From assembly GCA_947449895.1 (NCBI GenBank), contig CANFSO010000005.1, positions 1-44,275 of the forward strand: DNA of 44,275 nucleotides, written 5' to 3'. This DNA comes from Comamonadaceae bacterium. Lineage in GTDB: Bacteria; Pseudomonadota; Gammaproteobacteria; Burkholderiales; Burkholderiaceae_C. Shown in pieces: positions 27,155 through 43,695 of this stretch (position 1 is the stretch's first letter; each line of letters opens with the position of its first letter). Below the pieces are notes generated by a model. The model saw nothing but the letters and a program-made list of their open reading frames with translations. It was not told the origin of the DNA and searched no databases. The translations under genes and the position numbers were made by a program.

Positions 27155-27225
27155 GCCGATTGACGTATCCCTGAATCAGCGCTTTTTTTTTGGTTTTTAT
27201 TTCTTCCATTTTTGAATTGATCCCT

Positions 27226-28287
27226 ATGAAAATTGTTGTTCTGCCCGGCGACGGTATTGGCCCTGAAACCATGGCCGTCACGGTCGATGTTCTGGAAGCT
27301 GTTTCGAAAAAATTTCACCTTCAGCTCGAACTCCAGCATGACATCGCCGGCCATGACAGCCTGAAGCTTCACGGCGCGACCGTCACGCCGGCGCTGCTTG
27401 AAAAAGTGCGTGCCGCCGATGGTCTGATGCTCGGCCCCATGGCCACCTATGACTTCAAGGATGAAGCCAAGGGCGAGATCAATCCGTCGAAATTTTTCCG
27501 CAAGACGCTGGATCTGTACGCCAATATCCGGCCAGCACGGACCTTCAAAGGCATGACCGCGCGGCTTGGCGAGTTTGACCTGGTCGTGGTGCGTGAAAAC
27601 ACCGAAGGTTTTTATGCCGACCGCAACGTCGAATCCGGCGGAAGCGAGATGTTGATCACGCCAGACGTGGTGGTCTCGCTGCGCCGCATCACCCGCGTTT
27701 GCTGTGAGCGCATTGCGCGCTCAGCGTTTGAGCTGGCCATGACGCGGCGCAAAAAACTCACCTTCGTCCACAAAGCCAACGTGCTGAAAATCGGCGACGG
27801 CATGTTCATCGAAGAGTGCCTGCGCGTCGCTAAAGAGTTTCCGGAAGTAGCGGTTGACGACTTCATCGTCGACGCCATGATGGCCCACGTGGTGCGCGCG
27901 CCGCAGCGCTTTGACGTCATCGTCACGACCAATATGTTCGGCGACATCTTGTCCGACTTGACGGCAGAACTCTCTGGCAGCCTAGGCTTGGGCGCCTCGC
28001 TCAATGCCGGCGTTAACCACGCCATGGGACAAGCGGCGCACGGTTCTGCCCCCGACATCGCGGGGCAGAACATTGCCAATCCGTTCTCATTGATCTTGTC
28101 CGCCGGACAGCTGCTGCGCTGGCATGGGCTGCGGTCCGGCAAGCCGGCTTTCATCGAGGCCAGTGCCGCCATTGAAGCGGCGACGGCAGCGGCGATTGAG
28201 GCTCACGAAGCCACGCGCGACGTTGGTGGTCAGCTTGGCACGCGTGAAACCGGCGCCGCATTTGTAGCCCGCTTGATGGCAGCCTGA
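27226..28287 (+). CDS. Isocitrate/isopropylmalate/tartrate dehydrogenase-family protein
   Basis: The 353-residue beta-decarboxylating dehydrogenase has the N-terminal nucleotide motif PGDGIGPE, the substrate arginines in NIRPAR and VVVRENTEG, and the metal-binding signature TNMFGDILSDL. It would oxidise a 2-hydroxyacid such as a malate or tartrate derivative and release CO2. True leuB normally sits with leuCD; here it ends the plus-strand wing of a hydroxy-acid island, which favours a catabolic tartrate dehydrogenase-like role. The start at 27226 gives the standard MKIVVLPGDG N-terminus. Confidence 0.88.
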   Translation: MKIVVLPGDGIGPETMAVTVDVLEAVSKKFHLQLELQHDIAGHDSLKLHGATVTPALLEKVRAADGLMLGPMATYDFKDEAKGEINPSKFFRKTLDLYANIRPARTFKGMTARLGEFDLVVVRENTEGFYADRNVESGGSEMLITPDVVVSLRRITRVCCERIARSAFELAMTRRKKLTFVHKANVLKIGDGMFIEECLRVAKEFPEVAVDDFIVDAMMAHVVRAPQRFDVIVTTNMFGDILSDLTAELSGSLGLGASLNAGVNHAMGQAAHGSAPDIAGQNIANPFSLILSAGQLLRWHGLRSGKPAFIEASAAIEAATAAAIEAHEATRDVGGQLGTRETGAAFVARLMAA

Positions 28288-28319: not shown

Positions 28320-29216
28320 TCAAGGCTGCCCGGTGAGGGCTGCTGCGTCCGCTTGCCTACCCAGCCAGTCCAGAAAAAGCCTGACTTCGGGCCGGTAACC
28401 GTGCCGTTCGGGATAGACCACGAAGTGGGGCTGTACCTGGACGGACCAAGTCGGATCAAAGACTGGTTTTAGCCGGCCCGCCGTCACGTGTCCATCGCCA
28501 ATGACTCGGCTTTCAAGTGCCACGCCCAAGCCTTGCACGGCTGCGTCGAGTGCCATCAGCGCGCGGTCAAAGCGCAGCGCAAAGCGGTCTGGTTTTTGCC
28601 CCGGGTGGTATTTGGCAAACCAGTCGCTCCACTGAACAACACTGACGGTGGATTGGATCAGCGGCACCTGCAGCAGGTCTGCTGGTGTGCGGATCTGGTG
28701 GCGCTCAATAAAGGCGGCGCTGGCCAGCGGCAAGATCTCCTCGACGAGTACTGGTTTGACCACTAAGTTGGGCCACATTGGAACGCCGTAGCGGATATCT
28801 ATGTCGACCTGACCGAGTTCAAAGTCCGAATGAAGATGGGACGCGGACAAGAACAGCGAGACCCCGGGGTGTTCCTGCGCAAACTGCCCGATGCGCGGCA
28901 TCAGCCAGAGGCTGGCAAAGCTCGGGCTGGCGTGTACATACAACGTGTTGCGTACACCTTGGCGCATGTCGTCGGTGGCAGCGCTGATGGCCCCCAGCGC
29001 ACCGCCCACACGTTGCAAATAGGCTTCACCTGCCAAGCTGAGTTTGACGCCGCGAGACGAGCGCTCAAAGAGCTTGACGCCCAAAAAATCTTCCAGTCGT
29101 GCCACTTGGTGGCTGACAGCAGACGGCGTCAGGTGCAGCTCTGCAGCGGCCAGTGCAAAGCTGCGACGGCGCGCAATGGTCTCAAAAGCCAGCAGTGAGG
29201 GGAGTGGGGGCAACAT
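28320..29216 (-). CDS. LysR-family transcriptional regulator (GcvA-like)
   Basis: The 298-residue protein begins MLPPLPSLLAFETIARRRSF, a GcvA-type N-terminus, with a helix-turn-helix (AAAELHLTPSAVSHQVARLE) and an effector domain. The start at 29216 avoids 37 upstream codons that lie in the divergent promoter region. It diverges from the SDR gene across 122 bases, so it is the natural candidate regulator of the tetrose-type operon. It converges on the decarboxylating dehydrogenase gene with 32 bases between stops. Confidence 0.92.
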   Translation of the reverse strand: MLPPLPSLLAFETIARRRSFALAAAELHLTPSAVSHQVARLEDFLGVKLFERSSRGVKLSLAGEAYLQRVGGALGAISAATDDMRQGVRNTLYVHASPSFASLWLMPRIGQFAQEHPGVSLFLSASHLHSDFELGQVDIDIRYGVPMWPNLVVKPVLVEEILPLASAAFIERHQIRTPADLLQVPLIQSTVSVVQWSDWFAKYHPGQKPDRFALRFDRALMALDAAVQGLGVALESRVIGDGHVTAGRLKPVFDPTWSVQVQPHFVVYPERHGYRPEVRLFLDWLGRQADAAALTGQP

Positions 29217-29338: not shown

Positions 29339-30088
29339 ATGTTGCTAAAAGACAGGGTGGCCGTGGTCACTGGGGGCGCAGGCCCTAATGGGTTGGGTTT
29401 TGCCACGGCACGCATGATGGCGGCGCAGGGCGCAACCGTGATTATTTTAGATTTGGCGCAGGCCAATCCAGCCGCCGCAGCGGCCAAACTCGGTGCCCAG
29501 CACATGGGTCTGGTGGCCGACGTCACGAGCAAAGCCTCGTGTGATGCTGCGGTCGCCGAGGTGCTGAAAGCCAAGGGTCGGATCGACATCTTGGTCAACA
29601 ACGCTGGCATCACGCAGCCACGTAAAACACTCGACATTGCGCCGCAAGACTATGACGCGGTACTTGATGTCAGCTTGCGCGGCACCTTGGTCGCGTCACA
29701 GGCAGTTTTGCCCACCATGCGCTTGCAAAAGCGCGGATCCATCGTGTGTATTTCGTCGGTTTCGGCGCAACGTGGTGGCGGTATTCTGGGCGGCCCGCAT
29801 TACTCTGCGGCGAAGGCCGGCGTGCTCGGTCTGGCGCGTGCAATGGCACGCGAATTCGGCGGTGACGGCATCCGTATCAACTGCGTCACGCCAGGTCTGA
29901 TCGCCACTGACATCAACAAGGGTCTGATCCCTGATGACAAGCTGCAGTCGATTCTCGACGGTATCCCGCTCGGCTACATCGGCGCTCCAAACGACGTGGC
30001 GGGCTGCGTGGTGTTTCTGGCCAGCGACCTGTCGGGCTATTGCACCGGCATCACGCTGGATGTCAATGGCGGCATGTTGATCCACTGA
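29339..30088 (+). CDS. Short-chain dehydrogenase/reductase
   Basis: This 249-residue SDR has the NAD(P) motif TGGAGPNGLG (11-20), NNAG (87-90), the catalytic serine near 140, Y155 and K159 (HYSAAK), and a C-terminal DVNGGMLIH. It would oxidise a polyol or hydroxyl group to a ketone. AAGGAGA lies directly upstream of the ATG at 29339. It is the first gene of a nine-gene operon with TRAP, kinase, isomerase and transketolase genes, so I infer that it makes the ketose from an imported polyol. The FabG-like look alone does not define substrate. Confidence 0.9.
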   Translation: MLLKDRVAVVTGGAGPNGLGFATARMMAAQGATVIILDLAQANPAAAAAKLGAQHMGLVADVTSKASCDAAVAEVLKAKGRIDILVNNAGITQPRKTLDIAPQDYDAVLDVSLRGTLVASQAVLPTMRLQKRGSIVCISSVSAQRGGGILGGPHYSAAKAGVLGLARAMAREFGGDGIRINCVTPGLIATDINKGLIPDDKLQSILDGIPLGYIGAPNDVAGCVVFLASDLSGYCTGITLDVNGGMLIH

Positions 30089-30169
30089 ACCTATCAGCAG
30101 GCCCGCTTTTTAAATATCCGTTCGCAGCACGGCCCTCGCTGCATTTATTGATAAAAAACAGGAGACAAC

Positions 30170-31159
30170 ATGACACCACGATTCAATCTATTTCGCCGTG
30201 CCGCCCTGGTGGCTGCGCTGGCCTGTGCCGGCTCCATGAGCTTCGCCCAAGCCCCCGTCAAGCTGACGTTGGGGCACGGAGCTGCTCCGGGCAATCCGCG
30301 GCATGAGGCCGCTGTTAAATTTGCTGAGCTCGTCAAGGCCAACACCAAAGGCCGCATTGAGATCCAGGTGGCTCACTCCTCGCAGCTGGGTGACGATGCC
30401 GCCATGGTGACGGCGATTCGCTCTGGGACACTCGACATGTCGGCCAATAGCCAGGGGGCGGTCGCGGCCGTCGTGCCTGAGTACAGCGCGTTGGGCTTGC
30501 CTTTCCTGTTCTCGGATATCACCAAAGCTTGGAAAATGCTGGACGGTCCGATTGGGCAGGAACTGGCCAAGCGTTCAGAAGCCAAGGGCATGATCGTGCT
30601 CGGCTACTGGGACAACGGCATTCGCCATCTCTCGAACAGCAAGCGTCCCGTCAAAGCTCCCGCTGATGTCAAGGGTCTGAAGATCCGCACGCCGCCCGAT
30701 GCCATCACGGTAGACATCATGCAGGCCTTGGGCGCTGACCCGCAGCAGATCAAGTTCTCGGAGCTCTATGTGGCGCTTCAACAAGGTGTGGTGGACGGAC
30801 AAGAAAACCCGCTTGCCAACATTGAGTCGGCCAAGCTATACGAAGTTCAAAAGTACATCTCGCTGACCGGTCACAAGTACGAGGCAACTCCGTTTCTGAT
30901 GAGCAAGCGCTCATGGGACAAACTGAGCGCGGCCGACCAGAAGGTCTTCCTAGCTGCCGGGGCTGAGGCCACGCAACTGCAACGCAAGTTGTCCAAAGAT
31001 GCAGACCTCAAGCTGGTGAGTGAGCTCAAAGCCAAAGGTGTGCAGATTGACACCGTTGACAATGCGCCCTTTGTTCAGGCTACGCGCAGCGTTTACGACA
31101 AGTGGAGCGCAGGCCCTACGGGTGAGTTCGTGAAACGCGTTGTCCAAGCCGCGCGCTGA
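30170..31159 (+). CDS. TRAP transporter substrate-binding protein DctP
   Basis: The 329-residue periplasmic receptor has a Sec leader (ALVAALACAGSMSFAQ) and the DctP core: GYWDNGIRHLSN, the signature arginine in GLKIRTPP, and VDGQENPLANIES. The arginine usually binds a carboxylate, though sugar-acid and polyol-binding members exist. It is followed by dctQ and dctM genes, giving a complete TRAP system. An 81-base gap after the SDR gene holds a short GCAGC/GCTGC stem, which may separate expression levels. Confidence 0.94.
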   Translation: MTPRFNLFRRAALVAALACAGSMSFAQAPVKLTLGHGAAPGNPRHEAAVKFAELVKANTKGRIEIQVAHSSQLGDDAAMVTAIRSGTLDMSANSQGAVAAVVPEYSALGLPFLFSDITKAWKMLDGPIGQELAKRSEAKGMIVLGYWDNGIRHLSNSKRPVKAPADVKGLKIRTPPDAITVDIMQALGADPQQIKFSELYVALQQGVVDGQENPLANIESAKLYEVQKYISLTGHKYEATPFLMSKRSWDKLSAADQKVFLAAGAEATQLQRKLSKDADLKLVSELKAKGVQIDTVDNAPFVQATRSVYDKWSAGPTGEFVKRVVQAAR

Positions 31160-31172
31160 AGCTGAACGACTC

Positions 31173-31757
31173 ATGAGCACTCCTTTGTCACAAGACGCTC
31201 TGGCGACGCAAGGTCAGGTTGGATCGGCCGTCCTGCGCATCGCCAGTGCAGTCGACCACCTGATTGGCATGGCCTGCAGAGGGGTGCTTTATGTGACCCT
31301 CAGCGCTATGTTCATCATCCTGAGCGTCAACGTCGGCCTGCGATATATCGCGGGCAGCAGTTTGTCATCTGCCTCCGAGCTACCGGAGTTGATGTTTCCT
31401 TGGCTCATCATGGCGGGGGTGGTGCTGGCCGCGCAACATGGCTCGCACATTGCCATCGTCATCCTCACCCAGAAGCTCGGCAGACTGCGTCGCTGGGTGT
31501 TGGTGGCCGGATCGCTGGTGGTGGCGGGGCTTTACGCCTCGCTGTCAGTCGTGGCTTGGCCGCTGATGGAGATTGCCGCCGATGAGCGCACGCCCATCCT
31601 GCAAGTGCCTGGCTCGGTGAGTGTTTCCTGCCTGATGTTGGGCTTTGGGCTGTTGGCCATCGTGACCATTTGCAGGCTGCATCTGGTCTGGGTCAGCCAG
31701 CCTGACCTGATGCTTGACGAACCCACCAATTCCGACAACACGGGAGCACAGGCATGA
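31173..31757 (+). CDS. TRAP transporter small permease DctQ
   Basis: This 194-residue inner-membrane protein has four predicted helices with the DctQ pattern, including FIILSVNVGLRYIAG and ELPELMFPWLIMAG. The ATG at 31173 starts 13 bases after dctP stops, and its stop overlaps the dctM start as ATGA. An in-frame upstream start would overlap dctP and is unlikely. Confidence 0.92.
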   Translation: MSTPLSQDALATQGQVGSAVLRIASAVDHLIGMACRGVLYVTLSAMFIILSVNVGLRYIAGSSLSSASELPELMFPWLIMAGVVLAAQHGSHIAIVILTQKLGRLRRWVLVAGSLVVAGLYASLSVVAWPLMEIAADERTPILQVPGSVSVSCLMLGFGLLAIVTICRLHLVWVSQPDLMLDEPTNSDNTGAQA

Positions 31758-33013
31758 CCGGGCTCATTATTCTTTTGTTCGTGGTCGGTGCGCTGCTGTC
31801 GATCCCGATTGCACACGCTCTTGTGCTCGCCTCTGTCGGTGGGCTGCTCATCCTCGACCGGGTGCCGGTGCATCTGGCGATTGAACAAATGCTGTCGCAG
31901 ACGCAGAGCTTTCCGCTCATCGCGATTCCCTTTTTTATGATGACTGGCGCCTTAATGGTCAGCGGCAAGCTGGGTCAGAGTCTGGTCAAGTTGTTGTCCA
32001 TGATGATCGGCCGCGTCCACGGCGGTCCGGCGCAGGTGGGCGTTCTGTCATCGACGATCTTTGGGGGCGTCTCAGGCTCAGCTGTCGCGGATGCTTCTGC
32101 CATCGGCTCGATGCTGATCCCTTGGCTCAAGAAACTGGGTTACCCCGCACCGTTTGCCGCCGGTACGCTGGCCGCCGCTGCCACCATTGACATCCTGATT
32201 CCGCCTTCCATCCCGATGATCGTCTACGCGCTGGTCTCTGGCGCATCGATTGGCGCGCTGTTCGTCGCCGGCATTCTGCCCGGCCTGCTGATGTGTGCCG
32301 GCTTCATGGCTGTTTGTTATATACAAGGCCGTCGCCGCAACTTCCCCCGCGACACCACGCCATTCGAGTGGCCGGCATTTTGGCTCCAGCTCGTGCAGAC
32401 TGGTCCGGCGCTGGCCATGCCTGTGCTGATCATCGTCTTTCTGCGCTTTGGCATTGCCACGCCGACCGAGGTCAGCGTGATGTCCACGCTCTACGCCCTG
32501 CTGGTGGCGGGTCTGATCTACCGCGACCTGACGCTTGCCAAGATTCGGGCCGCAGCGATTGAAGCGGGCATTTCGACCGGTGTGGTGCTGCTCATCATCA
32601 TGGCCTCCAGCATCGTTGGATGGATCGTGACCTACGAGCAGTTGCCGGCTGAGTTCACACGTTACGCCAAGGAAACCTTGCAGTCCCCGTGGCTCATCAT
32701 TCTGGCGATGAATCTGATCATGCTGGCCACTGGCATGTTCATTGACCTGCCTGCGGCGGTACTCTTGCTCACACCCATGTTTGTGCCTCTGGCTGCGGCT
32801 GTCGGCATGGACACGATCCAGCTGGGCATCATGATGATCGTCAATCTCTCGATCGGGCTGTACCACCCGCCCATCGGGACCACGCTGTTCATCACCAGCA
32901 CCATCGCCCGCGTGCGCATTGGGGATGTTGTGAAAGAACTGATTCCGTTCTATTTCGTCGCCATCGGACTGTTGTTGGGTTTCGCCTACCTGCCTTGGTT
33001 GACTCTCCACTGA
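31754..33013 (+). CDS. TRAP transporter large permease DctM
   Basis: The 419-residue inner-membrane subunit carries the ion-coupled transport path. It has about 12 helices and family motifs such as FFMMTGALMVSGK, GGVSGSAVADASAIGS and PPSIPMIVYAL. It overlaps dctQ by four bases and is followed after 10 bases by the TIM-barrel isomerase gene, so transporter and enzymes form one transcription unit. Confidence 0.94.
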   Translation: MTGLIILLFVVGALLSIPIAHALVLASVGGLLILDRVPVHLAIEQMLSQTQSFPLIAIPFFMMTGALMVSGKLGQSLVKLLSMMIGRVHGGPAQVGVLSSTIFGGVSGSAVADASAIGSMLIPWLKKLGYPAPFAAGTLAAAATIDILIPPSIPMIVYALVSGASIGALFVAGILPGLLMCAGFMAVCYIQGRRRNFPRDTTPFEWPAFWLQLVQTGPALAMPVLIIVFLRFGIATPTEVSVMSTLYALLVAGLIYRDLTLAKIRAAAIEAGISTGVVLLIIMASSIVGWIVTYEQLPAEFTRYAKETLQSPWLIILAMNLIMLATGMFIDLPAAVLLLTPMFVPLAAAVGMDTIQLGIMMIVNLSIGLYHPPIGTTLFITSTIARVRIGDVVKELIPFYFVAIGLLLGFAYLPWLTLH

Positions 33014-33023
33014 AAACGACAGC

Positions 33024-33911
33024 ATGAGCAATTCATTAGTCACTGGTACAAGCGCATCCGACGTGCGCATCATCTCCATTTCGGGTGCTCCTTATGACGG
33101 CTATGAGCCACCGCGCATGCTCGAAAGTTTGGCGTCCATCGGTGCTGCGCACGTTGAGCCTGCCTTTATCGTCGGCTATACAGAGGCCTTTGACGAGTCT
33201 GCTTTCACGCCCGAGCAGGCCCAACAGTGGCAGCGCTGGTTGGCTGACAGCGGCATCGCCTGCCATGCCTTTTCTTCACACATCGACCTCGGGCGTGACG
33301 ACGCTGTTGATGTCTTTCGCGGCCGCATGGACTTTGCGCGAGCGCTGGGTGCTGAAGTCATCAACACCAATGCCGCTGCGCGCCGACTGAAAAAAAGTTT
33401 CTTCGCCAACATTGAGGTGCTGGCCCGGCATGCGGAGTGCATCGGTCTGAAGATCGGGCTGGAAAACCCTGGGGATGGCTCGGACAACCTGCTGAACACC
33501 GCCAGCGACGCCGCTGCGCTTTTAGGGGAGATAGGCCACGCCATGGTCGGTTTGAACTATGACGCAGGCAACACCATTTCGCACCGCCCGGGTGTAGCGC
33601 CTGTGGACGATGCCTTGGCCGCCATGCCCTTGTGTTTGCACACCCACATCAAGGATGTGCGGCGTGACGCCAGTGGCTACTTTTTCACGCCGCTAGGGCA
33701 GGGCAGCATTGACTGCGCGCACATCCTGCACGCTGTTACCGAAACGGCGTTGAACTTGTCCATCGAGATCCCGTTGCGACTGCACCGCTTGCCCAACGCA
33801 CAACCCAGTCGCTCGCCTTACCGCGTGCCGTTGGCCGACATTGAGGCGGTGCTGAAGCCTGCTTTGGCTTTTGTGCGGCAACACCTGAACCCGCTGATGG
33901 CGGCTCATTGA
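33024..33911 (+). CDS. Sugar phosphate isomerase/epimerase-like TIM-barrel protein
   Basis: The 295-residue protein belongs to the xylose-isomerase-like TIM-barrel (AP endonuclease 2) family. Likely metal ligands are in GLENPGDGSDN, NYDAGN, THIKDV and the late glutamate of SIEIPLRLH. Family members isomerise, epimerise or decarboxylate sugars and sugar acids. In this operon it could act on the ketose before or after phosphorylation, in a role like L-erythrulose phosphate isomerase, or like a 3-oxo-sugar-acid decarboxylase. Which one is not decided by the sequence. Confidence 0.82.
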   Translation: MSNSLVTGTSASDVRIISISGAPYDGYEPPRMLESLASIGAAHVEPAFIVGYTEAFDESAFTPEQAQQWQRWLADSGIACHAFSSHIDLGRDDAVDVFRGRMDFARALGAEVINTNAAARRLKKSFFANIEVLARHAECIGLKIGLENPGDGSDNLLNTASDAAALLGEIGHAMVGLNYDAGNTISHRPGVAPVDDALAAMPLCLHTHIKDVRRDASGYFFTPLGQGSIDCAHILHAVTETALNLSIEIPLRLHRLPNAQPSRSPYRVPLADIEAVLKPALAFVRQHLNPLMAAH

Positions 33912-33927
33912 AAGTGGAATGGCTGAC

Positions 33928-35706
33928 ATGAACCGCGTCATCAACAACCCCGACCAAGTGGTCGAGGACATGCTCAAAGGTTGGCTCCAAGCCCATGCCG
34001 ACACCCTCTGCATTTCAACTGCCAATGCACGTGTGGTGCAGCGCTTGCAAGCGCCGGAGCGCGGCAAGGTCGGTGTCATCACCGGCGGCGGTTCTGGCCA
34101 TGAGCCGGCATTTTTGGGCTATGTCGGCGACGGCTTGTTGGACGCAGTTGCTGTTGGCGAAATTTTTTCATCACCCACCGCGCGCAGTTTTTTCGATGCC
34201 ATGCAAGCTGCCGACGGCGGTGCCGGGGTGGCCTGTTTGTACGGCAACTACGCTGGCGACAACATGAACGTGAAGATGGCCATGCAGATGGCATCGGCTC
34301 AGGGCATGGCGGTTCAGACGGTGGTGGCCAATGACGACGTGGCCTCGGCCGCGAAGGGCGACGAGGCCAAGCGTCGCGGCGTGGCGGGCGAGATTTTCAT
34401 GTGGAAAGTCGGCGCGGCGGTGGCGGCGCGTGGCGGCTCGCTGGAACAAGTGATTGCGGCCGCACAAAAGGCCATCGACAACACCCGCAGCATTGGCATC
34501 GGCTTGTCGGCCTGTGTTATTCCGGCGGTTGGCAAGGCCAACTTCACGATTGAGCACGGCAACATGGAAGTGGGTATTGGCCACCATGGCGAGCCTGGGA
34601 TCGATGTGCGGCCGACAGCGACTGCCGCCGAGATGGCCGACTTGATGCTGGCGGCGGTGCTGCCCGACTTGCCGTTTGTGGCGGGTGACCGCGTGGCGCT
34701 TTTGGTGTCCGGCTTGGGCGCGACGCCGCTGATGGAGCAATACATTTTGTACGGCGAGCTGGCGCAGCACTTAGAGGCGCGCGGCATCCGTATTGCGTTC
34801 AAACAAGTGGGCAATTTGTTCTCGTCATTGGAGATGATGGGCGTCACCTTGACGCTCATGAAACTCGACGATGAGCTGGCATCGTGCTTGACAGAGCCTT
34901 GCCAATCAATCGGTCTGACGGTGGCCGGCAGTCTAGCCGCAGAGCGCCGTTACAACGGTCAGTTGGGTGGCCCTGTTGCGCAGAACAGCATCGTGGTTCC
35001 CGCTGTTTCTGCTAGCGCCCCGCGTCTTGTACGCCTTGTTATAGGCCCAGCGATACCGCTGGCGCTCAGTGGTGGTTTGGTGCGTGACTTGATCGCCAGC
35101 ATCGTCGCCAACCGTCAATACCTCAGCGAGATTGATGGCTTGATCGGTGACGGCGACCACGGCATCAACATGGCCAAGGGCTTCAACGGTTGCGCCGAAC
35201 GGCTAGACGCCTTGGCTGACAAGGCTTTGGAATTGCCCGCCGCTCTGACGCAACTCTCCAAGGCGTTGATGGACGACATCGGTGGTTCCATGGGCCCGTT
35301 GTATGGCGAATTTTTCAGAGGTCTGGCCGACACGCTGAGGCCTCACAGCCAGCTTGATGCGGCTTTGTTCGGTGATGCACTGGCCACGGCGGTGGCCAAT
35401 GTGCAGGCCATGGGCAACGCCAGGGTCGGTGACAAAACCCTGATGGACACGCTGTTGCCTGCGCTTGACGCTTACCGTGCATCGCAGACTTCTGCAGCCG
35501 GTTTTTCGGACGCCTTGCAGGCGATGTCGGAGGCCGCAGCCCGCGGCCGCGACTCGACGCAAGCTTTGCAGGCGCGTATCGGGCGTTCAGCCCGACTCGG
35601 CCCGCGCTCGATTGGTGTGCTGGATGCCGGCGCCACCTCTTGCTGTTTGATTTTGCAATCCATGGCGAGGTCGCTGCAGCACTTGCTGCAGACCGCGTCT
35701 GTTTGA
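33928..35706 (+). CDS. DhaK-DhaL ketose kinase (dihydroxyacetone/erythrulose kinase type)
   Basis: The 592-residue single-chain ATP-dependent kinase has an N-terminal DhaK domain with GGGSGHEPA and the histidine in GHHGEPG that covalently holds the ketose. The C-terminal DhaL domain begins near residue 365 and holds the nucleotide motif GDGDHG and DDIGGSMGPLYG. The start MNRVINNPDQVVEDML at 33928 matches the usual DhaK N-terminus and has GTGGA nine bases upstream; an ATG at 33919 adds three residues. The family phosphorylates dihydroxyacetone, and DAK-family members also phosphorylate D- or L-erythrulose. The adjacent RpiB-like gene favours erythrulose. Confidence 0.9.
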   Translation: MNRVINNPDQVVEDMLKGWLQAHADTLCISTANARVVQRLQAPERGKVGVITGGGSGHEPAFLGYVGDGLLDAVAVGEIFSSPTARSFFDAMQAADGGAGVACLYGNYAGDNMNVKMAMQMASAQGMAVQTVVANDDVASAAKGDEAKRRGVAGEIFMWKVGAAVAARGGSLEQVIAAAQKAIDNTRSIGIGLSACVIPAVGKANFTIEHGNMEVGIGHHGEPGIDVRPTATAAEMADLMLAAVLPDLPFVAGDRVALLVSGLGATPLMEQYILYGELAQHLEARGIRIAFKQVGNLFSSLEMMGVTLTLMKLDDELASCLTEPCQSIGLTVAGSLAAERRYNGQLGGPVAQNSIVVPAVSASAPRLVRLVIGPAIPLALSGGLVRDLIASIVANRQYLSEIDGLIGDGDHGINMAKGFNGCAERLDALADKALELPAALTQLSKALMDDIGGSMGPLYGEFFRGLADTLRPHSQLDAALFGDALATAVANVQAMGNARVGDKTLMDTLLPALDAYRASQTSAAGFSDALQAMSEAAARGRDSTQALQARIGRSARLGPRSIGVLDAGATSCCLILQSMARSLQHLLQTASV

Positions 35707-35724
35707 CCTTCACGAAAGAACCCC

Positions 35725-36174
35725 ATGAAATTGGCGATTGGCTGCGACGAGGCCGCGTATGACCTCAAACAAATTTTGAAAAAGCACATGGCCGACGCTG
35801 GTCATGAAGTGACTGATTTCGGCACGCATGACGCGCAACCGGTGCTCTATCCGGATGTAGCTTTCGCCGTGGCCGAGCGCGTCGCCAGCGGTGATTTTGA
35901 GCGGGCGCTGCTGCTTTGCGGTACAGGCATTGGCATGGCTATTTCGGCCAACAAGGTGCGCGGGATTCGGGCTGCGCAGTGCCATGACACCTATTCCGCT
36001 GAACGCGCCAGCCGCAGCAATGACGCGCAGATCATCACCATCGGGGCTCGGGTGGTCGGACCGGAACTGGCCAAAGCCATTGTTGATGCCTGGCTGAGCA
36101 ATGATTTTGATGGCGGTCGCTCGCAACCTAAAGTCGACATGATTCAGGCTTACGAAACCGGCCACAGCGCATGA
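35725..36174 (+). CDS. RpiB/LacAB-family isomerase lacking the ring-opening histidine
   Basis: The 149-residue protein aligns along its length with ribose-5-phosphate isomerase B. The catalytic cysteine is kept (C65 in LLCGTGIGM), as are the ANKVRGIRA loop and GGR near the C-terminus. Three canonical histidines are changed: GCDH is GCDE at residue 9, the RQHND histidine is serine (RSND, about residue 98), and GGRH is GGRS. In E. coli RpiB, H99 opens the furanose ring. Tetrose 4-phosphates cannot close such a ring, so I infer a D-erythrulose 4-phosphate/D-erythrose 4-phosphate isomerase (DerI-like). It overlaps the transketolase gene by four bases. Confidence 0.85.
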   Translation: MKLAIGCDEAAYDLKQILKKHMADAGHEVTDFGTHDAQPVLYPDVAFAVAERVASGDFERALLLCGTGIGMAISANKVRGIRAAQCHDTYSAERASRSNDAQIITIGARVVGPELAKAIVDAWLSNDFDGGRSQPKVDMIQAYETGHSA

Positions 36175-37010
36175 GCACGCTGGCTGATTTGAACGACTGT
36201 GCTTACCGGGTCCGGCGCTTTGCGCTGCGCATGGGTGAGGTCCAGGGCCAGGGTTACATTGGCCAAGCGCTGGGTTGGGCCGATGTGCTGGCAGTGGCTT
36301 ACGGTCACGCGCTCAAACTGCGTGCCGCAGAACCGCTGTGGGAAGAACGTGATCGCTTTTTGCTGTCACATGGCCACTACGCCATCGCCCACTACGCCGC
36401 CTTGATTGAAGCCGGTGTGCTGCCTGAAGACGAACTTGACAGCTATGGCAGCGATGACAGCCGTCTGCCCATGTCCGGCATGGCGACCTACACGCCGGGG
36501 ATGGAAATCTCGGGCGGCTCGTTGGGACAGGGTTTGATCATTGGCGTTGGCATGGCGCTTGGTTTAAGGCTCAAGAAAAATCCGGCCTTTGTCTACAACT
36601 CGATGTCCGACGGCGAGCTTGACGAAGGCTCGACCTGGGAGGCCGCTGCCTCAGCCGCGCACCATGGTTTGTCGAATCTGATTTGTTTGGTGGACCTGAA
36701 CAAGCAGCAAGCCGACGGCAGCACCAGTGAGGTCTTGCGCTTTGAACCCGTGGTCGACAAATGGGCTGCCTTCGGATGGCATGTGCAGCGTGTCGATGGC
36801 AATAACTTACCCGCTGTGCTGACTGCTTTTGACGCCGCGCGTGACTGCAGAGATGCCAAGCCGCGCGTGATTTTATTTGACACCTTGATGGGCAAGGGTG
36901 TGCCGTTTCTGGAGCAGCGCGAAAAGAACCACTTCATCCGGGTCGACCCGCCCGAGTGGCAGCAAGCCATCGCTTATCTGGACGCCGCACACGCGGGCAC
37001 CGCCGAATGA
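36171..37010 (+). CDS. Transketolase, N-terminal (TPP-binding) subunit
   Basis: The 279-residue subunit has the diphosphate-binding domain of a split transketolase, with LSHGHYAIAHYA, GGSLGQGL and the TPP motif, which here reads SDGELDEG followed by VDLNKQQ. The first glycine of the usual GDG is serine; the metal-binding aspartate and later asparagine are kept. It needs the next gene's product to form the active site. Split transketolases are often dedicated to peripheral sugar pathways (apulose 4-phosphate, sulfofructose) rather than the main pentose phosphate route. Confidence 0.9.
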   Translation: MSTLADLNDCAYRVRRFALRMGEVQGQGYIGQALGWADVLAVAYGHALKLRAAEPLWEERDRFLLSHGHYAIAHYAALIEAGVLPEDELDSYGSDDSRLPMSGMATYTPGMEISGGSLGQGLIIGVGMALGLRLKKNPAFVYNSMSDGELDEGSTWEAAASAAHHGLSNLICLVDLNKQQADGSTSEVLRFEPVVDKWAAFGWHVQRVDGNNLPAVLTAFDAARDCRDAKPRVILFDTLMGKGVPFLEQREKNHFIRVDPPEWQQAIAYLDAAHAGTAE

Positions 37011-38005
37011 ACACCATGACGAACAAGAAGCCCCGGCTGACCACTTCAGCCATGATCGCGTCGATCGCCAGCGAAGGCCAGCGCACGCGCGTCGCACCGT
37101 TTGGCAAGGCGCTGGTCGAATTGGGCGCGCAGCGCCCCGAGATCGTCGGCATGACGGCTGACTTGGCCAAATACACCGACCTGCATTTGTTTGCCCAAGC
37201 CTACCCGGAACGGTTTTTCCAGATGGGCATGGCCGAGCAGTTGTTGATGGGTGCTGCCGGCGGGTTGGCCAAGGAAGGCTTTGTGCCTTTTGCCACCACC
37301 TATGCGGTGTTTGCCACGCGCCGGGCCTACGACTTCATGCACCAGGTGATCGCTGAAGAAAATCTGAATGTGAAAATTGTTTGTGCCTTGCCCGGTTTGA
37401 CCACCGGCTATGGACCCAGCCATCAAGCCGCAGAAGACCTCGCCCTGATGCGCGCCATGCCCGGCATGATGGTGATTGACCCGTGCGACGCGCACGAAAT
37501 CGAGCAGGCCGTACCAGCCATCGCGGCACACCAGGGACCTGTCTACATGCGGCTGCTGCGCGGTCAAGTGCCATTGGTACTCGACGAATACGGCTACCAG
37601 TTTGAAATCGGCAAAGCCAAAGTTATCCGTGATGGCCGCGACGTGCTGTTCATCTCGACCGGGCTGATGACCATGCGTTCACTTGAAGCTGCACAAGCTT
37701 TGCAACGCGACCAGATTGACGCTGCCGTGCTGCACGTACCGACTCTCAAACCCCTCGACGCAGCCACCATCTTGCGCGAAGCGGCGCGACCTGGAAGGCT
37801 GGTGGTGGTAGCAGAAAATCACAGCGTGATTGGCGGCCTCGGAGAAGCTGTGGCCGGTGAGCTGATGCGTGCTGGTGTGCATCCGGCGTTTCGCCAGATT
37901 GGTTTGCCGGATGTATTTTTGGATGCGGGTGCGTTGCCGACCTTGCATGAGCGATACGGTATTTCGACCGACGCGGTGGTGGCGTCCGTTAAATCCTGGC
38001 TGTGA
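37007..38005 (+). CDS. Transketolase, C-terminal (pyrimidine-binding) subunit
   Basis: The 332-residue partner has the pyrimidine-binding domain, with the activating glutamate in FQMGMAEQLLMGAAGG and the histidine in GPSHQAAEDLALMRAMPGM, followed by the C-terminal transketolase domain (VVVAENHSVIGGLG). It overlaps the N-subunit gene as ATGA. The start at 37007 agrees with that coupling. Together the pair would move a two-carbon unit, with erythrose 4-phosphate or a related aldose phosphate as acceptor. It is the last gene of the operon. Confidence 0.9.
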   Translation: MNTMTNKKPRLTTSAMIASIASEGQRTRVAPFGKALVELGAQRPEIVGMTADLAKYTDLHLFAQAYPERFFQMGMAEQLLMGAAGGLAKEGFVPFATTYAVFATRRAYDFMHQVIAEENLNVKIVCALPGLTTGYGPSHQAAEDLALMRAMPGMMVIDPCDAHEIEQAVPAIAAHQGPVYMRLLRGQVPLVLDEYGYQFEIGKAKVIRDGRDVLFISTGLMTMRSLEAAQALQRDQIDAAVLHVPTLKPLDAATILREAARPGRLVVVAENHSVIGGLGEAVAGELMRAGVHPAFRQIGLPDVFLDAGALPTLHERYGISTDAVVASVKSWL

Positions 38006-38081: not shown

Positions 38082-38116
38082 AAAACCCCGGTTTGTTCAT
38101 ATCAGCCGGGTTTTTT
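38082..38116 (+). terminator. Rho-independent terminator of the SDR-TRAP-kinase-transketolase operon
   Basis: CCCGG at about 38087-38091 pairs with CCGGG at 38106-38110, extended by A-run/T-run pairing across one bulged C, and is followed by TTTTTT at 38111-38116. It lies 76 bases after the transketolase stop. Together with the next entry it accounts for much of the 305-base gap from 38006 to 38310. Confidence 0.85.
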
Positions 38117-38140
38117 CTTGCCCGGTTCTCCGGCGTCTCA

Positions 38141-38310: not shown

Positions 38311-38832
38311 ATGGGGCTTAAATTTCTCGAACATGTTTTGATTCTGACTCATGATCCGGAGGGCACACGAGATTGGTTTTGCGATAACTTAGGCTTTCGC
38401 AATGGTTACCACCCAGAGTTTGGCTTTCCAGTTTATTGGCTTTACATCGGTGAGCAGGATGTGATTCACATCGGCAAGGCTAGGCACTCTGCGCATCAAG
38501 ACACCTACCTGAAAACGCCGAGCGATCAAGACGGGACAGATTATTCCGCAGCCGGTGCGCCAGGATCGGGCCGGATCGACCATCTTTGCCTGAACTCCGA
38601 GGGCATTGAAGAGTTCATTGAGCGCCTGACTAAAAACGGTGTTGAGTTCAGTGAACGTAAAGCCCACAACTCCGACCTTTACCAGCTCTTCATGCGTGAA
38701 CCCATCAACGGCATCAAAGTCGAGTTGAATTTCGCTTGGCATGAGGCGGCCCGCATCGGTCGCGTGCCTTCATGGACTGACGCTGGCGAAAATGCCCCCG
38801 ACAAAGTTGCCACATCAAAGGAAAGTCAATGA
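38311..38832 (+). CDS. VOC-family (glyoxalase/dioxygenase fold) protein
   Basis: The 173-residue protein has the paired beta-alpha modules of the vicinal-oxygen-chelate fold. Likely metal ligands are H8 (LEHVLIL), H53 (DVIHIGK), H91 (GRIDHLCL) and E138 (VELNF). The fold supports glyoxalases, epimerases and extradiol ring-cleaving dioxygenases. The next gene, overlapping by four bases, encodes a fumarylacetoacetase-family hydrolase, a common partner of ring cleavage, so a dioxygenase-like role is a fair guess. AAGGGG lies eight bases before the ATG. It is the first gene of its operon. Confidence 0.88.
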   Translation: MGLKFLEHVLILTHDPEGTRDWFCDNLGFRNGYHPEFGFPVYWLYIGEQDVIHIGKARHSAHQDTYLKTPSDQDGTDYSAAGAPGSGRIDHLCLNSEGIEEFIERLTKNGVEFSERKAHNSDLYQLFMREPINGIKVELNFAWHEAARIGRVPSWTDAGENAPDKVATSKESQ

Positions 38833-39548
38833 GTTTTTCGTCTTCTGCTTCAGCCACTCCCAGCCAGTTCGTCATTCCAGCGCCAGCCACCATCAGCCTG
38901 CCGGTGCAGGGTTCGAAGTCTCGCTTTCCCGTTAACCGTATTTACTGCGTCGGCCGGAATTATGCGGAGCACGCCCGCGAGATGGGACACGACCCAGAGC
39001 GTGAGCCTCCTTTTTTCTTCATGAAGCCAGCAACGACGATCGTGACAGATGGCGGCGCTTTTCCTTACCCGTCCTTGTCTACTGACGTGCATCACGAGAT
39101 CGAACTGGTGGTGGCGATTGGCACCGGTGGTAGCAACATTTCGATTGAGCAAGCGCTGACGCATGTGTACGGTTACGCCGTCGGTCTCGACATGACGCGT
39201 CGTGACTTGCAGGCTGGCGCCAAAAAAGCGGGTCGCCCTTGGGACACCGGCAAAGCTTTCGATTGCTCTGCACCCTGTGGTGAGGTTGTGCCCGTCAGCG
39301 TCATCGGACACCCCGCTTCTGGGCGTGTTAGCTTGAAAGTCAATGGTGAGTTTCGCCAGCAAGGTGACTTGGCCGACCTGATCTGGAACGTGCCCGAGAC
39401 GATTGCCTACCTCAGCACCTTGTTTGCCCTGCAACCCGGCGACTTGATCTATAGCGGTACGCCAGCGGGGGTTGGCCCTGTGGTTAAAAATGACGTCATG
39501 CTCGCTTTTGTTGAAGGTGTGGGCGAACTGCATGTTCAGGTCAATTGA
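38829..39548 (+). CDS. Fumarylacetoacetate hydrolase-family protein
   Basis: The 239-residue cytosolic hydrolase shows the metal site glutamates in DVHHEIELVVAIG, RNYAEHAREMG near the N-terminus, and GTPAGVGPV near the C-terminus. It resembles fumarylpyruvate hydrolases of gentisate-type pathways, which cut a C-C bond of a diketo acid. It is coupled to the VOC gene (ATGA overlap). An oxaloacetate decarboxylase or 2-hydroxyhepta-dienedioate isomerase activity cannot be excluded from the fold alone. Confidence 0.9.
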   Translation: MSFSSSASATPSQFVIPAPATISLPVQGSKSRFPVNRIYCVGRNYAEHAREMGHDPEREPPFFFMKPATTIVTDGGAFPYPSLSTDVHHEIELVVAIGTGGSNISIEQALTHVYGYAVGLDMTRRDLQAGAKKAGRPWDTGKAFDCSAPCGEVVPVSVIGHPASGRVSLKVNGEFRQQGDLADLIWNVPETIAYLSTLFALQPGDLIYSGTPAGVGPVVKNDVMLAFVEGVGELHVQVN

Positions 39549-39566: not shown

Positions 39567-40547
39567 ATGAATAGACGCGAACTACTGTCATCGGGTGTGG
39601 GTGTTTTTCTGGGGTCGGTGACTGCGGCTTCCGCCTGGGCTCAAAAATATCCCAACGGCTCTGTCACCATCGTGCTTCCACTGCAGGCAGGCAGCGCCTC
39701 TGATGTGGCTGTTCGGCACATGGCTGAGCGTCTTGGCGCCCGTCTTGGCAGCGGTTTCGTCATCGAAAACGTGGCGGCCGCAGCTGGCCTGGTGGGACTT
39801 GAGCGTTTGTCTAGGGCTAAAACCGATGGGCAGACCGTGGCCGCGCTGAACAACAGCATCATGACGATATTGCCGCACCTGCAGGGGAAAAACCTCAAGG
39901 TAGATACGCGTAAAGACTTTGTGCCAGTTGCTGGCATCGCCAACATACCGACCTTTTTTGCTGTGCCGGCGGCTTCGTCCATTCGCACGATACAAGACCT
40001 TGTCAAACTGGCAAAAAGTGAGCCCAACCGGATCACCTATTCGTCGGGCGGTGTTGGTAGCCCACAGCATATGGCGACGGAGATGTTCAAGTCTTACACC
40101 GGAACACAACTGGTGCACGTGCCTTATCGCGGCGCCAGCCAAGCGGCTTTGGCTGTGGCCTCAAGCGAAGTGCAGGTGATGTCGATGGCTCTCTCGCTGG
40201 CGCAGCCTTTTTTGCCTGACAACAAGGTGCGACTGATCGGCTATTGCGGCACCGAGCGGCATGCTCAGTTTCGCGACATCCCGACCTTGCAGGAGCAGGG
40301 CGTGAAGAATTACGACTATTCGTCATGGATTGGACTTTTTCTTCACAAAGATGTGCCGCAAGACGTCTTGGCTGTGCTGCGCCGCGAAGCCCAAGCCATC
40401 GCGAATGACCGTGATTTTCAGCTGCAGCTGATTCGCTCTGGCTTAGAGCCTTGGCCGCGCAACGCCGACCAATTAGTGAAGATTGTCGAAGGTGATTTTC
40501 AGCGTTGGAAAAAAATCATCCAAGACGCTAAGATCCAAAGCGCCTGA
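39567..40547 (+). CDS. Bug-family tripartite tricarboxylate transporter receptor
   Basis: This 326-residue periplasmic receptor has a leader starting MNRRELLSSGVGVFLGS, which could be Tat- or Sec-dependent, with cleavage near ASAWAQ. The pocket region is diverged: VTIVLPLQAGSASDVAVR replaces the usual VPFAPGG, while VHVPYRGASQAALA is conserved. That suggests a ligand different from that of the other four Bug proteins here. It follows the hydrolase gene by 18 bases. Confidence 0.9.
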   Translation: MNRRELLSSGVGVFLGSVTAASAWAQKYPNGSVTIVLPLQAGSASDVAVRHMAERLGARLGSGFVIENVAAAAGLVGLERLSRAKTDGQTVAALNNSIMTILPHLQGKNLKVDTRKDFVPVAGIANIPTFFAVPAASSIRTIQDLVKLAKSEPNRITYSSGGVGSPQHMATEMFKSYTGTQLVHVPYRGASQAALAVASSEVQVMSMALSLAQPFLPDNKVRLIGYCGTERHAQFRDIPTLQEQGVKNYDYSSWIGLFLHKDVPQDVLAVLRREAQAIANDRDFQLQLIRSGLEPWPRNADQLVKIVEGDFQRWKKIIQDAKIQSA

Positions 40548-40557
40548 GACCGCTGAC

Positions 40558-41487
40558 ATGGATCTGCCACTGGTTCGTCTGGCCGGGTATCAAGGCCAAG
40601 ACTCGATCCTCACGGAGGCCCTGCAGTTGCTCGCGCAACAGTTGCAGGAATCTTCTTGGGGCTTGCCCGTCGATTGCGAAGCAGATGTCACGGCCAGCCA
40701 AGAAAAAGCTGCGGCGTTGTTTGACTCGGTTGAGCAGGGCAAGCGGCATATTGGCTACATGGCCTCAGGCTACCTGTCGGCAAGGGTCAGTGAGCTCGCC
40801 GTCTTGGATTTGCCTTTTTCAGTCCTAGACCGCAAGGCGGCACTCACTGCACTCGATGGTCAGGCAGGCGTGTTGCTGAGTGCGGCTGTCGCTGAAAAAA
40901 GCGGCTTTCAGGTGCTGGCATTTTGGGACAACGGCTTTCGCCATATTTCCAACGCCGTGCATCCGATTCGACATCCGCGAGATTGCGCCGGTTTGATCAT
41001 TCGAACGCTGGACAGCGCGAATTACCGCACTGCACTGGGAGCGCTCGGCTTTGATCCCATCACCACCGATGTCAAGGATCTGGTCCGTGCGGTGGCCATG
41101 GGCGAAGTTCACGCGCAGGAAAACCCGCTCACCAACTTGTTGAATTTCGGTCTCTGGAAACACCACCCGCACGTCAGTTTGACGCAGCATTACTTCGGCG
41201 TTTTGCTGCTGGTGTGTTCGCGCAGTTGGTATGGCGCGCTGAGTGATGCCCAACGCGACACGCTGGCACAAGCTGTGGCGGTGGCCACGCGCGCGCAGAG
41301 ACACAAGGCGCAGGCGCAAGACGCTATCGCATTGGCACAACTTAAAAATCATGGTGTGCATATCGTGCCGTCTGAAGCCATCGATCTGGCCGCCATGCGG
41401 CTGGCCACTCAGGAGGTCGCGCAACGTCAGCGTGAGACTTTGTCTGCAGATCTTTTGTCAGCGTATTTTTCTGAATCCCCGCATTGA
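40558..41487 (+). CDS. DctP-like TRAP binding protein without signal peptide
   Basis: The 309-residue protein matches TRAP receptors: FWDNGFRHISN, the signature arginine in GLIIRTLDS, and EVHAQENPLTNL. It begins MDLPLVRLAGYQGQ, with no hydrophobic leader, and 25 in-frame residues upstream do not supply one. It should therefore stay in the cytosol. It sits between a Bug receptor and a quinone oxidoreductase gene, and no dctQM genes follow directly. It may have lost its export signal, or been reused as a cytosolic sensor or enzyme. Confidence 0.8.
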   Translation: MDLPLVRLAGYQGQDSILTEALQLLAQQLQESSWGLPVDCEADVTASQEKAAALFDSVEQGKRHIGYMASGYLSARVSELAVLDLPFSVLDRKAALTALDGQAGVLLSAAVAEKSGFQVLAFWDNGFRHISNAVHPIRHPRDCAGLIIRTLDSANYRTALGALGFDPITTDVKDLVRAVAMGEVHAQENPLTNLLNFGLWKHHPHVSLTQHYFGVLLLVCSRSWYGALSDAQRDTLAQAVAVATRAQRHKAQAQDAIALAQLKNHGVHIVPSEAIDLAAMRLATQEVAQRQRETLSADLLSAYFSESPH

Positions 41488-42627: not shown

Positions 42628-43695
42628 ATGATCAAACATTTCAAAGCTACTGTGTTGGTTGGTTTGCTGGGTCTGTTCGGTGCCGCAGGCGTGAGTGCGG
42701 AAAACATCAAGCTGCGCATCGCCTCGGGTCATCCCGCCGCCAACACCTATGTCAACTTGATGCAGAACTTTTTTGTACCTGAGGTCACCAAGCGTGTCGC
42801 CCAACGAACCACCCACAAAATTGAGTTTGTCGAAGGCTACGGCGGTTCAATGGTCAAGGTGGCCGACACCCTCGAAGGCGTTCAGTCCGGCTTGATTGAC
42901 ATTGGCGGCTACTGCTTCTGTTTCGAGGGCTCCAACCTGCCTCTGAATTCTTTCCAAGTGATGCTGCCTTTTGGCACCATGAGCCCGGAGAAAAGTGTCA
43001 AGCTGGCGCGCGCGGTTTATGACAAAGTGCCTTACCTGTCTAAAGTCTTTGAAGATAAGTTCAACCAGCAGTTGATTGCCCTGATTTCTGACAACGGCTA
43101 CAACATCGGTACGACCTTTGAGTGGAATAATTTCAGCGAGCTCAAGGGTCGCAAGATCGCCGGCGCGGGTCTCAATCTCAAGTGGCTCGAATACGCCGGG
43201 GCGGTGCCAGTTCAGTCATCGCTGCCGGAGGCTTACACCTCCATGCAAACGGGTGTTTACAACGGCTGGATCATGTTCCCTTCAGGCTGGGTCAACTTCA
43301 AGTTGAACGAAGTCGCCAAGCACTATTCGGAAGTTGGCTTTGGTGCCATCACATGGCACGGCATGACCATCAACAAGTCGCGCATGGCCAAGTTGCCGAA
43401 AGATGTTCAGGCCATCATCATTGAAGTGGCCAAAGAGTTTGAAGCCAAAACCGGCAGCGTCAACGAAGAGGGCTATCCCAAGCAGATTGCCCAGCTCAAG
43501 ACCTTGGGCGTGAATGTCAAGTCTGTGCCTGACAGCGTCCGCGTGGACTGGGCCAACTCACTGAAGGGCTGGCCACAGACCATGGCGACGGACCTTGATG
43601 CCAAAGGTTTGCCTGCGTCGCAGGTCTTGAAAATCACACTTGAAGAAGCTGAAAAGATGGGCCACAAATGGCCAGTCCGTTACGTGATCAAGTGA
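42628..43695 (+). CDS. TRAP transporter substrate-binding protein DctP (divergent type)
   Basis: The 355-residue receptor has a Sec leader (TVLVGLLGLFGAAGVSAE) and a TRAP fold with SLPEAYTSMQTGVYNG. At the place where most DctP proteins read LKxxKIRT it reads LKGRKIAGAG, so the usual carboxylate-binding arginine seems absent. That suggests a different mode of ligand binding, perhaps an aromatic or less charged acid. AGGAG precedes the ATG. It is followed by dctQ and dctM genes, and preceded by motif copy B. Confidence 0.9.
   Translation: MIKHFKATVLVGLLGLFGAAGVSAENIKLRIASGHPAANTYVNLMQNFFVPEVTKRVAQRTTHKIEFVEGYGGSMVKVADTLEGVQSGLIDIGGYCFCFEGSNLPLNSFQVMLPFGTMSPEKSVKLARAVYDKVPYLSKVFEDKFNQQLIALISDNGYNIGTTFEWNNFSELKGRKIAGAGLNLKWLEYAGAVPVQSSLPEAYTSMQTGVYNGWIMFPSGWVNFKLNEVAKHYSEVGFGAITWHGMTINKSRMAKLPKDVQAIIIEVAKEFEAKTGSVNEEGYPKQIAQLKTLGVNVKSVPDSVRVDWANSLKGWPQTMATDLDAKGLPASQVLKITLEEAEKMGHKWPVRYVIK

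Follow-up and report, generated by a model that had tools for sequence, protein, structure and literature searches.

Introduction

Mycobacterium smegmatis reportedly utilises D- and L-threitol and erythritol by means of DthD, LerK/DerK, LerI, and DerI. In sulfoglycolysis, an anionic ketose serves the transketolase SqwGH as ketol donor, and an isomerase then acts on the C4 product (PMC12890257). A nine-gene operon with features of both systems was found in a 44,275-nucleotide stretch of DNA (the window) from a Comamonadaceae bacterium. The operon (29339-38005, + strand) comprises nine intact open reading frames (ORFs), each with an ATG start, which encode a short-chain dehydrogenase/reductase (SDR), the three parts of a tripartite ATP-independent periplasmic (TRAP) transporter (DctP, DctQ, and DctM), a xylose-isomerase-like TIM barrel, a DhaK-DhaL kinase, an RpiB-family isomerase, and the two subunits of a split transketolase. 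All nine proteins score above the Pfam cut-off for their families. The gap between the SDR gene and dctP is 81 bases, and the gaps downstream of dctP are, in order, 13, -4, 10, 7, 18, -4, and -4 bases, in keeping with the first-pass annotation, which had described nine same-direction genes that from dctP on lie 18 bases or less apart or overlap.

That annotation read the operon as a TRAP-fed tetrose or tetritol pathway. Our analysis gives about an even chance to a different reading, in which this would be an aldonate-catabolic operon with TRAP import, an SDR, a keto-aldonate transketolase, and a branch of TIM barrel, kinase, and isomerase leading to erythrose-4-phosphate (E4P). A broader proposal, put more tentatively, is that the split transketolase represents a widespread, undescribed catabolic class which would use unphosphorylated keto-aldonates as ketol donors, the carboxylate standing where other donors have a phosphate or sulfonate, and is paired with its own SDR, extended here by the TIM/kinase/isomerase branch to E4P. 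Searches of the open-licence PMC literature found no account of such a pathway, in which an SDR and a split transketolase would act on aldonates; the first-pass annotation had likewise suggested that its combination of enzymes and TRAP importer is undescribed.

The split transketolase

The last two genes of the operon encode the thiamine diphosphate (ThDP)-binding (N) subunit (36171..37010, +) and the pyrimidine plus C-terminal subunit (37007..38005, +), both assigned by Pfam and residue alignment. In E. coli TktA numbering, H66, D155, N185, H261, D381, E411, H473, and R520 are kept in the window enzyme and in 59/59 relatives; we take D155, N185, H261, and E411 to have ThDP-binding or catalytic roles in TktA-type transketolases. 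The substitutions H100S, S385Y, and H461L are found in the window enzyme and in all 59 relatives, as is Tyr at 434, and neither the window enzyme nor any of the 59 has Asp at 469 (a gap or Tyr by alignment). Position R358 falls within a linker that aligns poorly. The paper on the Carboxydothermus hydrogenoformans enzyme gives H66, H100, G114, and H473 as donor residues and R358, S385, D469, and R520 as positions at which changes improve the use of aromatic aldehydes (PMC7661550). Moreover, the residue equivalent to H100 is Phe in DXS, and H100F and H100L increase activity with pyruvate (PMC7661550).

Nine further split transketolases, encoded by Rhizobium, Agrobacterium, Cedecea, Conservatibacter, and Necropsobacter genomes, all have His100 (9/9) and Ser or Thr at 385 (9/9). 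By these alignments, the window enzyme is non-canonical, with an altered substrate pocket. Because the conserved pocket residues at 100 and 385 are changed, an ordinary transketolase dedicated to E4P and xylulose-5-phosphate (Xu5P) appears unlikely, and a donor which carries a carboxylate in the position of the phosphate is plausible. A conventional transketolase is also encoded in the same genome, where contig C79 ends within its gene (a match of 378 bits to model positions 3-208), so the split transketolase is an extra enzyme. In the annotated records that were opened, it is named transketolase, and its partner SDR oxidoreductase or glucose 1-dehydrogenase.

The loci of the other split transketolases with His100 and Ser/Thr385 (L176-L184; Rhizobiaceae, Cedecea, Pasteurellaceae) have an ABC transporter and/or a SorC gene nearby in 8/9 cases, with a triosephosphate isomerase (TPI) gene as well at L176. 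The transporter genes beside the R. leguminosarum pair RL2718-19 resemble those of other split-transketolase loci. This pair, described as two transketolases in a study of the alfalfa rhizosphere (PMC3333776), was considered as a candidate for the SDR-linked module described below and set aside.

Conservation and gene modules

A contig scan with a TIM-barrel alignment gave 142 pattern matches, of which 89 were confirmed; the counts of loci that follow refer to the best 80 of these 89. At 21 loci the TIM barrel has at least 60% identity to that of the window, and several of these are cut by contig ends. The SDR was found near 15 of them, DctP near 13, the transketolase C-terminal subunit (transketolase C) near 13, a DhaK-type kinase near 17, and RpiB near 15, with all five together at 8/21. 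Among the 29 loci with 40-60% identity, ten of which are closely similar loci from Rhizobium, the corresponding counts are SDR 12, DctP 22, transketolase C 10, kinase 18, and RpiB 5, and all five occur together at 2. A threonate-dehydrogenase-like gene is nearby in 15 of these 29. Below 40% identity (30 loci), the split transketolase was found at none, while kinase (20), RpiB (19), PdxA (19), and TPI (19) are common. The TIM family is scarce, being present in 1/300 genomes of the order at E 1e-30 (the window only) and on 21/72,556 plasmid records at 1e-8.

Anchoring on transketolase C at E 1e-90 gave 8/399 genomes of the order and 24/398 of the phylum (the genome of the window is counted in both samples, which have four other genomes in common). 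This set holds 27 loci, that is, every place other than the window's own. Within 8 kb of transketolase C, the N subunit is present at 26 of the 27, the SDR at 24 (it was not found within this distance at L130, L133, and L143), DctP at 11, and a threonate-dehydrogenase-like gene at 5. The DhaK-type kinase (2), TIM barrel (1), and RpiB (1) are rarely this close. Since the SDR is near in 24/27 loci and the kinase, TIM barrel, and RpiB seldom are, the SDR and the split transketolase form a separate core (module A).

Conversely, the TIM barrel and kinase occur without the split transketolase in Rhizobium tropici (L015, no RpiB) and, distantly, in Pasteurella (L016, with RpiB). The window operon joins two gene groups that are often separate in relatives. 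The module boundary is not rigid. In Sphaerotilus the TIM gene lies inside an SDR-TRAP-transketolase operon with the kinase and RpiB genes a few kilobases off, in Aureimonas (L040, L043, L044) it immediately precedes the transketolase genes, and in Shinella one group lies next to the other and is read divergently from it. Conservation of the operon as a unit, on which the first-pass annotation made its reading depend, holds in part: the set of genes is seen again in Burkholderiales, yet as modules rather than one indivisible unit.

The TIM group and the transketolase module are linked even when they lie apart. From 27 TIM loci (at least 40% identity) with no transketolase C nearby, nine genomes were chosen by the authors, and in 6/9 a transketolase ortholog (71-80% identity) was found elsewhere in the genome. 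Compared with the background of 24/398, this gives a binomial probability of about 3e-6, a rough figure as the genomes are related and the nine were hand-chosen. At E 1e-50, the split transketolase is found on 220/72,556 plasmid records, of which many belong to rhizobia and Pantoea, and the pair occurs in 5/5426 complete E. coli genomes.

Several further arrangements were seen around these genes. In E. coli 99COLEC (L156), one of the five carriers, a module of major facilitator superfamily (MFS) transporter, SDR, and transketolase adjoins adhE-type and RraA-family genes. A second, full-length transketolase adjoins module A at L013, L018, L127, L129, L132, and L138; in those of L013 and L018, the two checked, position 385 is Pro and position 358 is not Arg. 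At loci with a TIM barrel below 40% identity (L016 and others, in Pasteurellaceae and enteric bacteria), the TIM gene clusters with PdxA, DhaK/DhaL, a DerI-like RpiB, TPI, transaldolase, or transketolase, which perhaps represents another undescribed tetrulose or tetronate route.

The imported compound

The TRAP system consists of the solute-binding protein DctP (30170..31159, +; Pfam), the small permease DctQ (31173..31757, +; Pfam), and the large permease DctM (31754..33013, +; Pfam and family models). A conserved arginine gives TRAP binding proteins their carboxylate specificity (PMC4646407). In the paper on IseP, Arg152, Arg173, and Asn213 bind the carboxylate, with an aromatic residue at position 196 and an acidic one at 76 (numbered as in 4P47), and the remaining ligand-bound structures of the related set contained pantoate or erythronate, co-purified ligands that are possibly non-native (PMC11668362). 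The window DctP has all five (R152, R173, N213, F196, and D76), a match in numbering, as 4P47 lay outside the alignment. R152, R173, F196, and N213 show no variation across 23 aligned proteins, and D76 hardly any. The nearest chains by sequence are 4p9k, 4pdd, and 4pdh (37-39% identity), which we take to hold D-erythronate (the IseP paper does not name these entries). The top structural matches of the DctP model (mean predicted local distance difference test, pLDDT, 90.7) include 7bbr, a "sugar acid binding protein".

Where module A occurs elsewhere, the transporter is of TRAP or MFS type. The MFS proteins of Pantoea and Klebsiella score 347 and 250 bits for the D-galactonate family (cut-off 395), and that of Klebsiella aerogenes scores 368 bits for a metabolite/H+ symporter (cut-off 443), all below their cut-offs. 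A scan of 101 same-strand ORFs within 5 kb, out of 132 listed, found 10 DctP, 8 MFS_1, and 3 ABC ATPases, and 4 matched the D-galactonate carrier model. Lactonase-type genes adjoin the unit in Aminobacter and Bradyrhizobium, the two Aminobacter proteins scoring 104 and 60 bits, below cut-off. The L-threonate-dehydrogenase model is the best for seven neighbouring proteins at 293-335 bits, none over the cut-off of 350, with the next family at 178-214; an eighth protein, from K. aerogenes, scores 204 vs 141 bits. Of 15 threonate-dehydrogenase-like members, 14 are 36-47% identical to E. coli YgbJ and 29-34% identical to GlxR. The gene lies between dctM and the TIM gene in Rhodoferax (L020), Polaromonas (L024), and the metagenome-assembled genome of another Comamonadaceae bacterium (L023).

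Because DctP has the carboxylate residues, relatives have aldonate-type carriers, and threonate-dehydrogenase-like and lactonase genes lie nearby, an aldonate is the probable substrate of import, and the tetrose or tetritol proposed in the first-pass annotation finds no support in these features.

The SDR and the proposed branch to E4P

The SDR (29339..30088, +) was assigned by Pfam, and its nearest solved chain is 7krk. It scores 168.8 bits for the GolD/DthD family, below the cut-off of 286 (NF005309). It probably oxidises the imported acid.

The TIM barrel (33024..33911, +) belongs to Pfam AP_endonuc_2 and may have a ketose isomerase or 3-epimerase fold. Its probable metal ligands are E147, D180, H208 (or H206), and E248, an assignment made by comparison with epimerases. 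OtnI and Hyi were considered as identities for this protein and rejected: although the Pfam family is AP_endonuc_2, there is no significant similarity to E. coli YgbM (E 0.46) or Hyi (1.8), and neither Hyi nor OtnI chains are among the 50 matches listed for it.

The kinase (33919..35706, +) is a DhaK-DhaL fusion of the ATP-type dihydroxyacetone/erythrulose class, with both Dak1 and Dak2 domains above cut-off; none of the family models scored distinguishes erythrulose kinases (LerK/DerK) from dihydroxyacetone kinases. Its best plasmid relative (71% identity, Sphaerotilus) adjoins an RpiB gene. Another relative, the DhaK+DhaL of a Salmonella plasmid cluster, matches 96% of its length at 55% identity; that cluster also contains a GolD/DthD-family dehydrogenase, RpiB, and transaldolase.

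The RpiB-family isomerase (35725..36174, +; Pfam and residue alignment) has a residue signature like that of the D-erythrulose-4-phosphate isomerase DerI. In 43 related RpiBs, picked by similarity to that of the window, His is absent from E. coli positions 10, 99, and 134, and Cys66 is kept (43/43). The same His losses, again with Cys66 kept, are seen in the RpiB of Rhizobium etli, the sole above-cut-off DerI compared (255 vs 240 bits), whose gene adjoins 3-oxo-isoapionate-4-phosphate decarboxylase (OiaX), while an RpiB of Sinorhizobium meliloti keeps His10 and His99. His99 is presumably the ring-opening residue of RpiB, and its loss would fit a tetrose phosphate unable to close a ring. Since the window protein shares the signature of a true DerI, conversion of erythrulose to erythrulose-4-phosphate and then E4P by the kinase and the RpiB-like isomerase is credible, and this part of the original pathway, from ketose through ketose phosphate to E4P, survives. 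The R. etli locus (CIAT 652 plasmid pC; L164 1-12378) is itself an apionate-type cluster with OiaX over the cut-off, TPI, and DerI.

Proposed pathway

In the proposed scheme, the TRAP system would import a small sugar acid, and the SDR would oxidise a hydroxyl group, most simply at the penultimate carbon, yielding a keto-aldonate that ends in HOCH2-CO-CHOH-. The split transketolase, whose pocket no longer has the usual donor histidine or the phosphate-site serine, may then use this keto-aldonate as ketol donor and pass on the C2 unit. A short semialdehyde acid would be left over: a C4 acid would leave glyoxylate, and a C5 acid tartronate semialdehyde. Along a second branch, the TIM isomerase or epimerase would be the source of erythrulose, and the kinase and DerI-like RpiB could convert this to D-erythrose-4-phosphate; here the enzyme classes follow from sequence and the substrates are putative. 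The erythrulose might be a product of the transketolase itself or be formed when a 3-keto-pentonate is decarboxylated. The simplest scheme which uses every gene would start from a C5 acid. The SDR would give a 4-keto-pentonate, which the transketolase would split into tartronate semialdehyde and a C2 unit. The TIM barrel would move the keto group to C3, and the resulting beta-keto acid would lose CO2 to give erythrulose for the kinase and the DerI-like isomerase. A C4 acid would be a better fit to the threonate-dehydrogenase-like neighbours and the DctP relatives, and would leave RpiB idle. The glyoxylate carboligase model found nothing over cut-off in the host genome (best 331 of 711 bits; genome 78.5% complete).

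Several points weigh against this reading. Chemically, nothing links the predicted SDR product to the transketolase, the enzyme roles being predictions, and the C4 and C5 versions each explain one gene less well. In the transketolase, R520 is kept and could still hold a phosphate, and a HOCH2-CO- donor does not account for the loss of His100. The comparison with the nine other split transketolases is also less clean at other positions: His461 is present in only 1/9, so that its loss alone means little, and Arg520 is missing in 3/9. The window RpiB scores 181 bits, under the DerI cut-off of 240 (NF051858), and is therefore labelled DerI-like rather than DerI. In 3/9 genomes (Propionivibrio, with only 40-44% relatives, Asaia, and Rhizobium), no transketolase ortholog was found, nor was one in the single R. 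tropici plasmid record tested. On the side of transport, the most divergent relatives (L152, L153) have only ABC-type carriers among their labelled genes, and the window contains no threonate-dehydrogenase-like gene. Moreover, in the Burkholderiales loci that do have one (L020, L023, L024, L026, and L030), the DctP proteins have 59-63% identity to that of the window vs 88-89% in L021 and L022, and because this TRAP set is more distant, the acid of those five loci may differ.

Alternative explanations

The same genes could serve a C4 acid alone, a reading that we regard as unlikely. A tetronate (threonate or erythronate) would be oxidised to 3-oxo-tetronate, which would lose CO2 to give dihydroxyacetone, the kinase would be an ordinary dihydroxyacetone kinase, and the transketolase would split 3-oxo-tetronate into glyoxylate and a C2 unit. 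The threonate-dehydrogenase-like neighbours would fit, as would the related TRAP binding proteins closed on pantoate or erythronate (PMC11668362), and rhizobial loci pair a threonate-dehydrogenase-like gene with the TIM barrel and DhaK/DhaL in the absence of RpiB and split transketolase. The RpiB-like isomerase would be left jobless, yet it is present at 15/21 of the closest TIM loci and is DerI-like in signature. Distinctly unlikely is a role as carboligase, in which the split transketolase would make L-erythrulose from C2 units and the TIM barrel, as an erythrulose 3-epimerase, would turn it into D-erythrulose for the kinase and the DerI-like isomerase.

The original TRAP-fed tetritol or tetrose route, with an SDR yielding a ketose and a dedicated ordinary transketolase consuming the E4P, now seems very improbable. 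Erythrulose does fit the kinase and the RpiB-like isomerase, but the DctP residues and the carriers are of acid type, the SDR falls well short of GolD/DthD (169 bits vs 286), and the genome already encodes a conventional transketolase, the one truncated where contig C79 ends. The transketolase pocket is altered, and in the independent, transketolase-anchored sample the SDR and split transketolase commonly occur with no kinase or isomerase nearby. Least probable of all is an apiose-type pathway (TIM barrel to apulose, kinase to apulose-4-phosphate, and the split enzyme as its transketolase), since, although split transketolases reportedly act on apulose-4-phosphate (Carter et al. 2018), apiose is neutral and the SDR and RpiB would have no role.

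Genomic setting

The window is contig C5 of a host genome of 2.72 Mb in 209 contigs (78.5% complete), in which three DUF1537-type kinases are encoded elsewhere. A GcvA-like LysR regulator gene (28320 to about 29216, - strand; probable ATG start at 29216), missed by the first-pass annotation, is divergent from the operon, and a LysR gene is near in 14/21 loci with a TIM barrel of at least 60% identity. Just upstream of it lies an isopropylmalate/tartrate-dehydrogenase-like gene (27223-28287, +), whose best NCBIfam matches are below cut-offs. At the operon end, a terminator-like hairpin followed by a T-run (near 38082..38117, +) has a minimum free energy of -14.3 kcal/mol (z -1.9), with 8/200 shuffles equally good. 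The consensus terminator scan, which permits only 3-8 base loops, does not list this hairpin; a terminator closing the unit, as first annotated, is plausible. On the downstream side are a fumarylacetoacetate-hydrolase-family gene (38829-39548), a tricarboxylate-receptor-like ORF (39567-40547, assigned by eye), and two more DctP-like proteins (40483-41487 and 42628-43695).

Significance

If the proposed reading is true, a common sugar-acid route has been hidden under the wrong name; the split transketolase is carried by 24/398 phylum genomes, 220/72,556 plasmid records, and 5/5426 E. coli genomes. The route would bring the carbon of acids into the pentose phosphate pathway, following sulfo-transketolase logic with a carboxylate as the anion. 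The altered transketolase pocket makes the reading sharply and cheaply testable.

Comparison with known systems

Like the threitol/erythritol route of M. smegmatis, the window operon has a DhaK-type kinase and a DerI-like isomerase directed towards E4P. Unlike that route, its SDR lies outside the GolD/DthD family, transport is of TRAP type, and there are an extra split transketolase and a TIM barrel. The split transketolase of C. hydrogenoformans (6yak/6yaj) has the same two-chain layout and is the best solved sequence match for both subunits, but it keeps the equivalents of His100, Ser385, His461, and Asp469, which the window enzyme does not.

The L-threonate/D-erythronate pathway LtnD-OtnI-OtnK-OtnC (PMC12540250) also acts on small sugar acids, and both an LtnD-like dehydrogenase and an enzyme of the AP_endonuc_2 fold are encoded in operons related to that of the window. 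In contrast to that pathway, the window operon is without OtnK and OtnC, and its TIM barrel has no significant similarity to YgbM (OtnI). A mutant transketolase converts 5-keto-D-gluconate to tartaric semialdehyde in engineered Gluconobacter (PMC12016104). This indicates that a transketolase can take a keto-aldonate donor, but with a mutant enzyme rather than in a natural operon. The nearest described logic is that of the sulfoglycolytic transketolase pathway (SqwGH, SqwI), which has a sulfonate as its anion and glyceraldehyde 3-phosphate as acceptor, whereas in the window operon the anion is probably a carboxylate, and TRAP import, an SDR, a TIM barrel, and a DhaK-type kinase are added.

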